Of a stretch of DNA of 64,000 bases, positions 4,807 to 58,820 are shown piece by piece. The stretch is from NCBI GenBank assembly GCA_026393455.1, contig JAPLAE010000061.1, forward strand, positions 1 to 64,000, read 5' to 3'. The stretch's first letter is position 1, and every line of letters starts with the position of its first letter. The translations under genes and the position numbers were made by a program. Under the pieces are notes generated by a model. That model was not told where the DNA came from and searched no databases. It worked only from the letters and a program-made list of their open reading frames with translations. Source of the DNA: Actinomycetota bacterium. Lineage in GTDB: Bacteria; Actinomycetota; Acidimicrobiia; Acidimicrobiales; Acidimicrobilacustridaceae.

Positions 4807-5787
4807 TCAGCCCTCCTTCACATCGGTATATTCACGAATTCGATCGCCAGAGAAATTCAGTGCAAGAACGGTGAGAAACAGGACGGCGCTCGGAATGAGA
4901 GAGATCCAAGGAGCGCCGTTTTCGAGTGCTGGCTTGCCACTCACAATCATGTTTCCCCAAGTTGCTGTTGATGCAGCGTCGATCGACAGACCGAGGAAGG
5001 ACAATCCGCCCTCTGCAACCATTGCTACAGCGATGGCGATAATTGAAAAGGAAAGCAGAGGCGGAACGATATTCGGCAGGATTTCTCGCCGCAGGATCCG
5101 AACGTGGCTTGCGCCAAGTGATCTAGCGGCGGTGACGAATTCCCGCTGACCGAAGATGAGCGCATTTGCTCGTACGAGACGCGCGGTGGGGGCGATGGCA
5201 ACGATGCCGAGAGCAATCGAGACGGTGAGGATCGTCTTTGAATTGGTGAAGTTCACAATGGCCAAAGCGAGAAGCAGGGCAGGAAACGAAAGCAACACGT
5301 CCATTGCCACCATCAAGACAGTTTCGGTCTTGCCCCGCAGGTAGCCGGCAGCGACACCAACGGCTGTGCCTATAACGCCCCCGAAGAGAATCGAGAGGAA
5401 CCCGACAGCGAGTGACGCTCGTGCGCCCCAGATGACTCGACAGAAAATATCCCGACCGAGCGCGTCGGTACCGAACCAGAACTGACTGCCCGGCGCAATA
5501 CGCGGACGCCCAACAATCTTGGAGGGATTTTTGATTGGAAGCCACGGAGCGGTGACGGCGAGAACGAGAACCAGAATGAAGAACCCGGCTGCAAACCAGA
5601 AAAAAAGACCCAAGCGCTTTTTGGGTCTTGCTCCATCGATCTGGTCGGGATCGAGTTTGCGAAGCGCTTCAAGACCATGCGCGTCACTATCAGCAATCCG
5701 TGTCACCTCGGTGGCGAGGTCGCCACTTGCGGCAAAGACCGAATCTACGGCTGGTCGACCGGCGTTGTCAGGCGAGGGCGCGGGCAT
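4807..5787 (-). CDS. Peptide/oligopeptide ABC transporter permease (OppC/DppC type)
   Basis: FGTDALGRDIFCRVIWGARASL and AARSLGASHVRILRREILPN permease motifs. Confidence 0.92.
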   Translation of the reverse strand: MPAPSPDNAGRPAVDSVFAASGDLATEVTRIADSDAHGLEALRKLDPDQIDGARPKKRLGLFFWFAAGFFILVLVLAVTAPWLPIKNPSKIVGRPRIAPGSQFWFGTDALGRDIFCRVIWGARASLAVGFLSILFGGVIGTAVGVAAGYLRGKTETVLMVAMDVLLSFPALLLALAIVNFTNSKTILTVSIALGIVAIAPTARLVRANALIFGQREFVTAARSLGASHVRILRREILPNIVPPLLSFSIIAIAVAMVAEGGLSFLGLSIDAASTATWGNMIVSGKPALENGAPWISLIPSAVLFLTVLALNFSGDRIREYTDVKEG

Positions 5788-6721
5788 GACGAATCCTGGG
5801 GTCGAGGGCGGCGTAGAGAAGGTCTACAAGGAAATTCAAAAGCACGTAGGCGCAGGCAATGACGACGATCGCGCCTTGCACTGGGACGTAGTCCTGACCC
5901 TGGATGGCAGCGTAGGTGTAACCGCCCAAACCATTCAGGCCGAAGATGACTTCGAGGATGATGGTGCCACCTACAAGCCGGCCGAAGTTCAGACCGATCA
6001 CTGTGATGAGCGAAAACGTTGAAGGCTTGAATGCATGCCCATACAACACTCTGCGCGGAGACATGCCTTTGGCACGAGCCATAGCGATGTAGTCCTCTTG
6101 CATCGTGGCGATGAGGTCGGTGCGCAGAAGTCGCATGTACACCGCCATTTCAGCAACGGCGAGGCAGATTGCGGGAATGGTGAGTGAAGCAAGACTCTTG
6201 AGTGGGTCGTCGCTGAAGGCCGTGTATCCGGTTGCGTTACCGATCCCTAATGTCACTGGGAAGATCCAAATGAGCAACATGGCCATGACGAAGTTTGGGA
6301 TTGCTAACAGCATGAACAAGGTCCCGCTCGAAAATCGATCGAGGATCCCTCCGGCCCGTTTTGCGGCTGCGAACGCTAAGGGTACTGACACAAGTAGCGC
6401 CAGGAACTGCGAGTAAAGAAGCAATTCGATCGTTACGGGCATCCGCTGAGCAAGGGCTTCTGAAACTGGTTGAGCGTTCCGAGCTGAGTTGCCGAGATCG
6501 CCAGATACGGCGTTGCCGAGCCAACGCACGTAGCGAACGGGCATCGGATCATTGAGATGAAACTCGATCCGCTTTTGATCGACGCATTCTTGGCCACCGG
6601 CCCCCGCGCACAGTCGCGTAGCGGTGTCTCCAGGAAGAAGTTCGAGAAGCAGGAACGACAGGAACGTCACGCACAGCAACACAACTACGAGTTGCGCCAG
6701 CTTCCTGCGTACGAACCTCAT
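5768..6721 (-). CDS. Peptide/oligopeptide ABC transporter permease (OppB/DppB type)
   Basis: LLELLPGDTAT N-terminus; YIAMARAKGMSPRRVLYGHAFKPS EAA-like loop; overlaps oppC-like CDS. Confidence 0.9.
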   Translation of the reverse strand: MRFVRRKLAQLVVVLLCVTFLSFLLLELLPGDTATRLCAGAGGQECVDQKRIEFHLNDPMPVRYVRWLGNAVSGDLGNSARNAQPVSEALAQRMPVTIELLLYSQFLALLVSVPLAFAAAKRAGGILDRFSSGTLFMLLAIPNFVMAMLLIWIFPVTLGIGNATGYTAFSDDPLKSLASLTIPAICLAVAEMAVYMRLLRTDLIATMQEDYIAMARAKGMSPRRVLYGHAFKPSTFSLITVIGLNFGRLVGGTIILEVIFGLNGLGGYTYAAIQGQDYVPVQGAIVVIACAYVLLNFLVDLLYAALDPRIRHARALA

Positions 6722-55789: not shown

Positions 55790-56158
55790 TCAGACAATGG
55801 TTGCCATTCGAGGCTCAAGCCTCGCGGCAACCAGCGGTTCAGCATTCTCCATGAGCCATGTCAACGCCTCTGAGAGGTCCTGCGCCGTGGATGATGCGGC
55901 AAGGTCCCGATTCACATCTTCAACCGCGGCCTGGAGGCAATAGAGCAATCCTTGGAGTTCCTCGATCGCCGATCGATCGACAATCACATCCTCGTCGTCG
56001 AGTCCATGGCTCTTGGCCAATTTCCTCGCCATATAGGACTGCTGACGACAACCAGCTCGGCAAAACGAGCGAGGCCGACCCGGACCTTCACGAGGTTCAA
56101 CGGGTCGACCGCACCACCGACATCTATTGGTCGGTTTTGCTCGGCCACTCTCACCCAT
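55790..56158 (-). CDS. Small zinc-finger-like hypothetical protein
   Basis: CRWCGRPVEPREGPGRPRSFCRAGCRQQSYMARK; ATG at 56158 or GTG at 56173. Confidence 0.65.
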   Translation of the reverse strand: MGESGRAKPTNRCRWCGRPVEPREGPGRPRSFCRAGCRQQSYMARKLAKSHGLDDEDVIVDRSAIEELQGLLYCLQAAVEDVNRDLAASSTAQDLSEALTWLMENAEPLVAARLEPRMATIV

Positions 56159-56190
56159 CGTTAATTTCGTCACGTGACGATATTAACGAT
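56157..56190. promoter_or_regulatory. 34-bp near-perfect palindrome, putative operator
   Basis: ATCGTTAATTTCGTCACGTGACGATATTAACGAT, 16 of 17 pairs symmetrical; shares core TTTCGTCACGTGACGA with 52837-52858. Confidence 0.7.
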
Positions 56191-56192
56191 TC

Positions 56193-57362
56193 TCAGCCTG
56201 TAAAGGTGGGAACTACTGGCGGCGCATCTGGCGCGGGCACTGCAGGGAGAACCGGAAACGGGAAGGCGGTGAGCGTCAACCCCCAAAGACCTTGGTAGGT
56301 CGCCAACAAACTCGGAATCCCTGGTTGCCACGAGGCATAGATCGATCCGAAGTCGGCTCCCGGCGTCGTGATCTGCCATGAGGACAGAATCGCAAATGGA
56401 GACGAACCATTCACCGCCCATGCTCCCCCGGTGGGCGACTGGCCAGATGCGAGTAGGGCTTGAATAACCAGAGCCGTCGAGTTGGGGTCGGGGTCTCCCC
56501 CGGTGAACCACGGAAACCCTGCGGCTTGTGGTCCGGATGTGGTCTGCGCTGCGTGCAGGAACGTCAGCGCGCTAGGTATCGCTGCCGTTTGACCTGCAGC
56601 TTTCAGCGCTTGAACAGCGAAGGCCGTGGAGTTTGTGTCGGCCCCGACATAGTTCAAGGAATCGGGAGCGTCGCAATCGTTAAGAGCGTTGCCGGTGTTC
56701 GCGCGAAATGCTTGCCATCCGCCCAGGGCGCCGGTCGGATTCGTTCCGCCGATGCACTGTTGACCAGCAATCCATTGCACCGCCGCAGAAGGCGGAGTGA
56801 TTCCTGACGCAAGCAACGCCATCACGACGAACGATTGGTCCTGCACTGCCGAATACGGTTCCTGGTAGCCGTAGAAACCGAAAACAGAAACGCCATAAAG
56901 CGCCTGTACACGAGTCAGAAGATTTGTTGCGGGGCTGCCGAAGGACGTCGGGTCTCCCCCGACAGTGCGAACCAACAGAATTAATTCACCCAAGCGCTCA
57001 GGTAAATCAGAGCCAACGGGAGCGACCGTTGATCCGCTGCCATCGTTGACGACCCAGTCATCGACATGCAGCGCGATGTAGCCCATCGCTCGCTCCAGAG
57101 CATCTCGATGCTGACCAGACGCAGCGAGACCGTTGGCGACGTACATCGTTTGCGTGGTTGTTGAGAAAGTCTCTCCCGGCACGTTCACTGCACCATCAGG
57201 GCCGACCTGAGCCGCCAACCAATCGGATGTGCGAGTCGAATCTGTAGTGGTCACTGCAGAGACTTGGAACACGGGTCCCGCTAGGTATGCGAGCGAGGCA
57301 ACGAGCAGCACAACCGTTCCGCGACGGAAGAGCTTCATTGCACGAGTGAACTGTTTGATCAT
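56193..57362 (-). CDS. Secreted alpha/alpha-toroid (prenyltransferase/squalene-oxidase-repeat-like) protein
   Basis: Signal peptide MKLFRRGTVVLLVASLAYLAGPVFQVSA; repeats DQSFVVMALLASG, NSTAFAVQALKAAGQ, NSTALVIQALLASGQSPTGGAW; AAGGA SD before ATG at 57362; Pro-rich C-terminus. Confidence 0.8.
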   Translation of the reverse strand: MIKQFTRAMKLFRRGTVVLLVASLAYLAGPVFQVSAVTTTDSTRTSDWLAAQVGPDGAVNVPGETFSTTTQTMYVANGLAASGQHRDALERAMGYIALHVDDWVVNDGSGSTVAPVGSDLPERLGELILLVRTVGGDPTSFGSPATNLLTRVQALYGVSVFGFYGYQEPYSAVQDQSFVVMALLASGITPPSAAVQWIAGQQCIGGTNPTGALGGWQAFRANTGNALNDCDAPDSLNYVGADTNSTAFAVQALKAAGQTAAIPSALTFLHAAQTTSGPQAAGFPWFTGGDPDPNSTALVIQALLASGQSPTGGAWAVNGSSPFAILSSWQITTPGADFGSIYASWQPGIPSLLATYQGLWGLTLTAFPFPVLPAVPAPDAPPVVPTFTG

Positions 57363-57399
57363 GTTGTCCTTAGGTTGGACCGACATTTCATCGGTGCCG

Positions 57400-57600
57400 A
57401 CCCTGGACGAACGCCAAATCGCGAACAACTCCGGGACTCGACACCGCATTCCACGACGGTGAGGTGAGTCTCGCTGCCCTGTTCGGTGATCCGACTCGGT
57501 CTGTCCCGGAAAGGCGACACACCACACGGTTGCGGGACAGCGCCGGAATCTCACCGGACTTCCCCTCACACGGCAGCTACTTCTTGTGGCGTCAGACAAG
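57400..57600 (-). ncRNA. Cobalamin (B12) riboswitch
   Basis: Minus strand: GCCACAAGAAGTAGCTGCCGTGTGAGGGGAAGTCCGGTGAGATTCCGGCGCTGTCCCGCAACCGTGT...TTTCCGGGACAGACCGAGTCGGATCACCG, matching the conserved cobalamin aptamer core; boundaries approximate. Confidence 0.92.
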
Positions 57601-57700
57601 CACCATTCGTTCTGCGAGTCAAGGACTGCACGCAAACGCATGTCAGACATAGGATCGATTCACAACCAAGGGTGACTCCCGTACTGAATGGAGAGCTGCG

Positions 57701-58507: not shown

Positions 58508-58540
58508 GTTCCATTACACAATTGACGCTGATCACCGCAT

Positions 58541-58785
58541 GCGGGAGAGATCACTCGAGACCCTGATGGGGAGCTTCTAACGGGGCTACTTAGACGGAAT
58601 CGAATGGCGCCGAAGGAGCAACCCCCCGGGAAACTCTCAGGCTCATGTACCGCACGCGTAGGCAACTCTGGAGAGCAGTCATCGCTTCTGCGAATGACTC
58701 ACCGACGGGGAAAGTTGAAACCAACGGGAGTTTTCCGGCGGTTGACACGAAACTCTCAGGTACCACAACAGAGCGGGGTCCCGAC
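58541..58785 (+). ncRNA. Tandem glycine riboswitch
   Basis: GGGAGAG...GGCGCCGAAGGAGCAA...GAAACTCTCAGGC...ACTCTGGAGAG...CACCGACGGGGAAAGTTG...GAAACTCTCAGGTA...ACAGAGCGGGG directly upstream of gcvP. Confidence 0.92.
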
Positions 58786-58820
58786 TAGTGCGCTTACGCG
58801 CCACAACCATCGAGGCCGCC

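Follow-up and report, generated by a model that had tools for sequence, protein, structure and literature searches.

A riboswitch-controlled toroid protein as a candidate component of a two-part cobalamin capture system in actinobacteria

Introduction

Scavenging of B12 by bacterial proteins that combine a toroid with a beta-grasp domain has already been proposed, and the general idea is known. Burroughs et al. (2007; PMC1796856) described bacterial toroid and SLBB proteins encoded in operons with CbiO and CbiQ and proposed that they scavenge B12. The SLBB clade was found mainly in low-GC Gram-positives and planctomycetes and less often in euryarchaea, and animals were proposed to have acquired the toroid and SLBB combination from bacteria. 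The animal carriers themselves, intrinsic factor, transcobalamin and haptocorrin, are secreted, B12-linked proteins with a toroid and a beta domain. At the level of the transporter, the acI genome paper (PMC5301498) noted cobalamin riboswitches ahead of ECF modules in B12-auxotrophic bacteria. In Bacteroides, surface lipoproteins are reported to catch B12 before it reaches the transporter (PMC6143338).

Here, we analyzed a locus in the window, the whole 64,000-nt stretch of DNA under study, where a cobalamin riboswitch precedes the gene of a secreted toroid-type protein (hereafter alpha). A second cobalamin riboswitch, at another locus of the same genome, precedes a beta-grasp-like protein (beta) and ECF transporter genes. 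The arrangement shares with the SLBB-toroid proteins of PMC1796856 the pairing of toroid and beta-grasp domains, the secreted or surface location, the CbiO/CbiQ genes and the loss of B12 synthesis. It differs in that beta is unmatched by DUF4430, and the text of PMC1796856 makes no mention of riboswitches. The likeness to the animal carriers extends to domain order, which is that of three natural fusions among the relatives. In contrast, the sequences do not significantly match those of the animal proteins, and the two halves are separate here, at two loci. Moreover, the animal carriers use endocytic receptors, whereas the system described here is predicted to be surface-anchored and is apparently coupled to an ECF transporter. 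The riboswitch-controlled ECF module in a B12 auxotroph recalls the ECF cobalamin transporters (ECF-CbrT, PMC5997447; acI, PMC5301498), from which it differs by an S-component without a Pfam or NCBIfam match and by the addition of the extracytoplasmic alpha and beta proteins. The Bacteroides lipoproteins belong to a different, Gram-negative system and resemble the role proposed for alpha and beta in that B12 is caught at the surface, ahead of a transporter.

Alpha and beta have clear but distant homologues in the NCBIfam families NF053823 (SCO2321) and NF040672 (SCO2322), respectively, which carry no functional name, and no paper on the function of SCO2321 or SCO2322 was found in the open-access literature. 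New in the present analysis are the separation of the two parts, each behind a riboswitch of its own, the link to SCO2321 and SCO2322, and a PxFTG tag at the C terminus of alpha.

The alpha gene and its riboswitch

The features of the alpha locus, in order along the transcript, are as follows.

57434..57590, minus strand: cobalamin (AdoCbl-type) riboswitch aptamer; full-model match to RF01482, recurring upstream of orthologues
57367..57371, minus strand: AAGGA, a likely ribosome-binding site 4 nt upstream of the ATG; read from the sequence
56193..57362, minus strand: alpha gene, encoding 389 aa and including the stop codon; by its NF053823 match, a distant SCO2321-family member
57255..57362, minus strand: signal peptide region, residues 1-36, boundary approximate; a basic start followed by a hydrophobic stretch
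56247..57230, minus strand: alpha/alpha-toroid-type domain, approximately residues 45-372; squalene-hopene cyclase profile match, no DxDD
56196..56210, minus strand: C-terminal P-x-F-T-G tag, residues 385-389, a probable surface-retention signal; conserved tail, genome-wide recurrence and anchor replacement in relatives

The translation, beginning at the ATG at position 57362, opens with a signal peptide, continues as a helical repeat domain and closes with a Pro-rich tail. The first-pass annotation had described just such a secreted helical-repeat protein, encoded on the minus strand immediately downstream of a cobalamin riboswitch. Both parts of that description hold: the repeat motifs it quoted are present and conserved, and the RNA element is a full-length RF01482 match with a conserved core.

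The aptamer lies approximately 70 nt ahead of the alpha start codon. It scores 46.7 bits against RF01482 (E = 1.5e-7, full model, local search; cut-off, 50) and 27.2 bits against RF00174 (E = 5e-5, genome search; cut-off, 31.5). With both scores slightly under the curated cut-offs, the element goes undetected when the window is scanned with Rfam defaults. Copies at alpha orthologues score above the Rfam cut-off, and the core (GGGGAAGTCCGGTGAGA..TCCGGCGCTGTCCCGCAACCG, B12 box) is nearly invariant over 18 orthologous loci with divergent flanks; together, these observations argue that the riboswitch is real. Folding of the whole RNA region gave no signal beyond shuffled sequences (z = -0.14), and RNAalifold, run with unrefined boundaries, returned the core stem alone and showed little covariation. 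For this reason, no expression-platform mechanism is claimed.

Family and fold of the alpha protein

As a single query, alpha matched nothing in Pfam or PDB searches. The profile of its family, built from 31 orthologues, matches squalene-hopene cyclase structures in the PDB (E = 2e-11), which places alpha in the alpha/alpha-toroid superfamily. All 31 members also match the NCBIfam SCO2321 family NF053823 (best E = 6e-58). The window protein itself scores 94.5 bits (E = 6e-27), below the curated 300 bits. Judged by these profile matches, alpha is a homologous but distant relative of the SCO2321 family.

Searches for the animal carriers returned no match to intrinsic factor or transcobalamin, either for the 31 members in Pfam (E up to 1) or for the alpha profile in the PDB (E up to 10). 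Two AlphaFold models are of low confidence (pLDDT, 49.6 and 48.3), as only three close sequences served as input. With these models, Foldseek gave weak matches to squalene-hopene cyclases, complement C3 fragments and transcobalamins, none below E = 0.01. These matches fit a toroid fold and do not single out transcobalamin. The toroid assignment made in the first-pass annotation thus draws its support from the family profile and, weakly, from the models. Its remark that no catalytic DxDD motif is apparent extends to the whole family, the motif being present in 0 of 31 members. A search of viral contigs and a phage collection turned up no relatives.

The partner locus

The only other clear cobalamin riboswitch in the genome (C131:23849-24011, 40.4 bits) is followed by the genes for beta, a CbiQ-type EcfT, a fused ECF ATPase pair and a multi-pass membrane protein. 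EcfT matches CbiQ (PF02361, E = 3e-6), and the ATPase, which holds two ATPase stretches within one protein (EcfA-A'), matches TIGR04521 (E = 2e-90). With an EcfT of the CbiQ family and paired ECF ATPases, the gene run qualifies as an ECF transporter. The multi-pass protein is the putative S-component; it sits in the expected position and has no Pfam or NCBIfam match.

Beta is a secreted protein of 297 aa with a membrane anchor at its C terminus. It is a distant homologue of the SCO2322 family (NF040672), which all 18 beta family sequences match, with the beta of the window's genome scoring below the curated cut-off. By eye, we take its conserved YW-x-Y...DGD-x-EGW pattern to resemble the transcobalamin beta domain; PDB searches gave no significant match to transcobalamin structures. 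The label DUF4430 (PF14478) was considered for beta and is not supported: the genome search found it in none of the beta proteins, and of 17 members one matched, at E = 0.06. Near the beta/ECF run, L004:14652-15704 (minus strand) encodes a predicted regulator with HTH and B12-binding domains, which could be a B12-sensing, CarH-like regulator.

Recurrence, linkage and fusion in relatives

The window's genome was compared with 60 relatives. An alpha orthologue is present in 33 of these 61 genomes. The first-pass annotation had suggested surveying orthologues for the riboswitch, and wherever a standard single alpha gene has intact upstream sequence, a cobalamin riboswitch lies directly upstream (26/26 genomes of the order, the window's own included; lists joined by hand). 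Outside the 26 are two special cases, the remainder being cut by contig ends. G046 has a single riboswitch followed by beta, ecfT, ecfA, the S-component gene and, last, alpha in one run, and in G041 the riboswitch precedes a second, SLH-bearing alpha paralogue adjoining beta. Across the phylum, the riboswitch is upstream in 19 of 28 alpha loci, among them genomes above the SCO2321 cut-off; one of these riboswitches is marginal (E = 0.008), and two of the 28 loci are shared with the 26. The alpha gene at the contig end in L105 (G033:C243) has a second cobalamin riboswitch (5758-5890) directly behind it, and G033 has a further alpha copy on another contig.

Alpha and beta tend to occur together. 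Among 199 genomes of the phylum, alpha is found in 42, beta in 29 and both in 26. Fisher tests give 3e-10 in the relatives and 2e-18 in the phylum, values that serve as a guide, since related genomes are not independent. The two genes lie within 5 kb of each other in 22 of the 26 phylum genomes with both (read from lists by hand), and genes of the two families are adjacent in genomes scoring over the NF053823 and NF040672 cut-offs. The four genomes with alpha and beta apart, including that of the window, all belong to the window's order. It follows that the pair was probably ancestrally adjacent and later separated in this lineage, with a riboswitch retained at each gene.

Alpha and beta are fused in three genomes (L101, L177 and L184), with a riboswitch upstream of each fusion. 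Alpha comes first in all three, which is the transcobalamin order. That two co-regulated proteins occur fused points to an alpha-beta complex, whether physical or functional. Conversely, 6 of 38 beta genomes, several of them incomplete assemblies, have no detected alpha, so that alpha may not be essential to transport.

B12 synthesis and need

CbiC, a marker of de novo B12 synthesis, is absent from the window's genome and from 32 of the 33 alpha genomes, and B12-binding-domain proteins are present in 61 of 61 genomes. As the window's genome is 83% complete, its absences are not absolute; relatives with near-complete genomes show the same pattern. For alpha, the anti-correlation with CbiC falls short of significance (P = 0.085); for beta, P = 0.025.

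Proposed capture system and alternative explanations

The first-pass annotation had proposed an extracellular B12-capture factor. As a hypothesis, capture is supported by the recurrence of the riboswitch, the co-regulated beta on the ECF run, the fusions in transcobalamin order, and the loss of CbiC where B12-binding-domain proteins are present. Alpha is probably one half of such a factor and not a complete soluble carrier. What was computed comprises the two riboswitches, the genes present, the co-occurrence of alpha and beta, their adjacency and fusion in relatives, and the absence of CbiC. From this, we consider it likely that cobalamin is captured at the cell surface by a two-part system, of which alpha is the toroid half, and is delivered to an ECF transporter.

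In such a system, low intracellular cobalamin would lead the riboswitch to permit alpha synthesis, the direction of control being our assumption. The second riboswitch would likewise permit synthesis of the membrane-anchored beta-grasp-like protein with EcfT, the fused EcfA-A' and the S-component. Alpha would be secreted and kept at the surface, presumably via its C-terminal PxFTG tag. There, alpha and beta may jointly hold the corrinoid in a shared site, like the two domains of transcobalamin, and pass it on to the ECF S-component. A bolder version, on which we are rather more doubtful than confident, sees in the pair a two-chain bacterial transcobalamin with its own riboswitch for each chain, which would close over B12, hand it to the ECF transporter and carry on alpha a previously undescribed PxFTG sorting tag.

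The ligand could be another or an incomplete corrinoid, such as cobinamide or other cobamides, caught by the same architecture under the same regulation. The genomic context points to a corrinoid without saying which, and the riboswitch presumably reports the finished cofactor and not the imported form. We regard this as unlikely.

A smaller chance falls to a division of labor in which beta alone binds the vitamin. Alpha would then make no contact with B12 and would hold beta and the ECF importer in position, as a scaffold at the surface or as a partner that binds polysaccharide. The prominence of surface anchors and the beta genomes without detected alpha would suit such a role, to which the strong co-occurrence of alpha and beta and their fusion in transcobalamin order are opposed. 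Slightly less probable again is import of cobalt by the ECF transporter, with the riboswitch governing cobalt for B12 synthesis and alpha and beta acting as accessory metal-capture or surface proteins. EcfT is a member of the CbiQ family of cobalt transport, and cobalt transporters can lie behind cobalamin riboswitches (PMC2667541). However, a genome without the corrin-ring marker CbiC, as here and in nearly all alpha genomes, has little use for B12-driven cobalt import, and cobalt leaves the pairing of toroid and beta domain unexplained.

A secreted terpene cyclase or prenyltransferase-like enzyme, to which the nearest PDB profiles (squalene-hopene cyclases) might point, is very improbable for a secreted, B12-regulated protein that is fused to a beta-grasp-like domain in relatives; this reading was dropped, as none of the 31 family members has DxDD. 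That the resemblance to a riboswitch arose by chance, or that the riboswitch acts on a different gene, has next to no weight, since its score just under the Rfam cut-offs is outweighed by the full-length match, the constant position in relatives and the near-invariant core.

A capture role for alpha and beta would give the unnamed actinobacterial families SCO2321 and SCO2322 a candidate function that can be tested, and would suggest how actinobacteria auxotrophic for B12 acquire the vitamin. If true, the pair would be a bacterial counterpart, natural fusions included, of the animal two-domain B12 carriers. Because alpha and beta are seen as neighbors, as fusions and at separate loci, the evolution of the architecture is directly testable.

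The C-terminal tag

The Pro-rich tail of alpha closes with a conserved P-x-F-T-G, a feature absent from the first-pass annotation. An exact C-terminal P-x-F/Y-T-G follows an otherwise divergent linker in 27 of the 33 orthologues listed for the window's family. Untagged orthologues mostly have a transmembrane helix, SLH repeats or an LPETG sortase motif instead, and some orthologues outside the window's family have no evident anchor. The P-x-F-T-G ending is shared by many other signal-peptide-bearing proteins in genomes G000, G023, G027 and G034 (L114-L156). Compared with a reversed-pattern control, the excess is approximately eight- to tenfold in G034 (30 versus 3) and G027 (25 versus 3), approximately twofold in G000 (13 versus 6), and 5 versus 2 in G023. 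This distribution suggests that PxFTG is a probable surface-retention signal, seeming to replace other surface anchors. No publication naming the tag was found in the open-access literature.

Two further elements were observed in the window. A 17-nt near-perfect inverted repeat with no spacer (56157-56190) lies between alpha and the following gene on the minus strand. At 58532-58778, a tandem glycine riboswitch (59.3 and 46.3 bits) immediately precedes a gene at 58788 whose product resembles glycine dehydrogenase.
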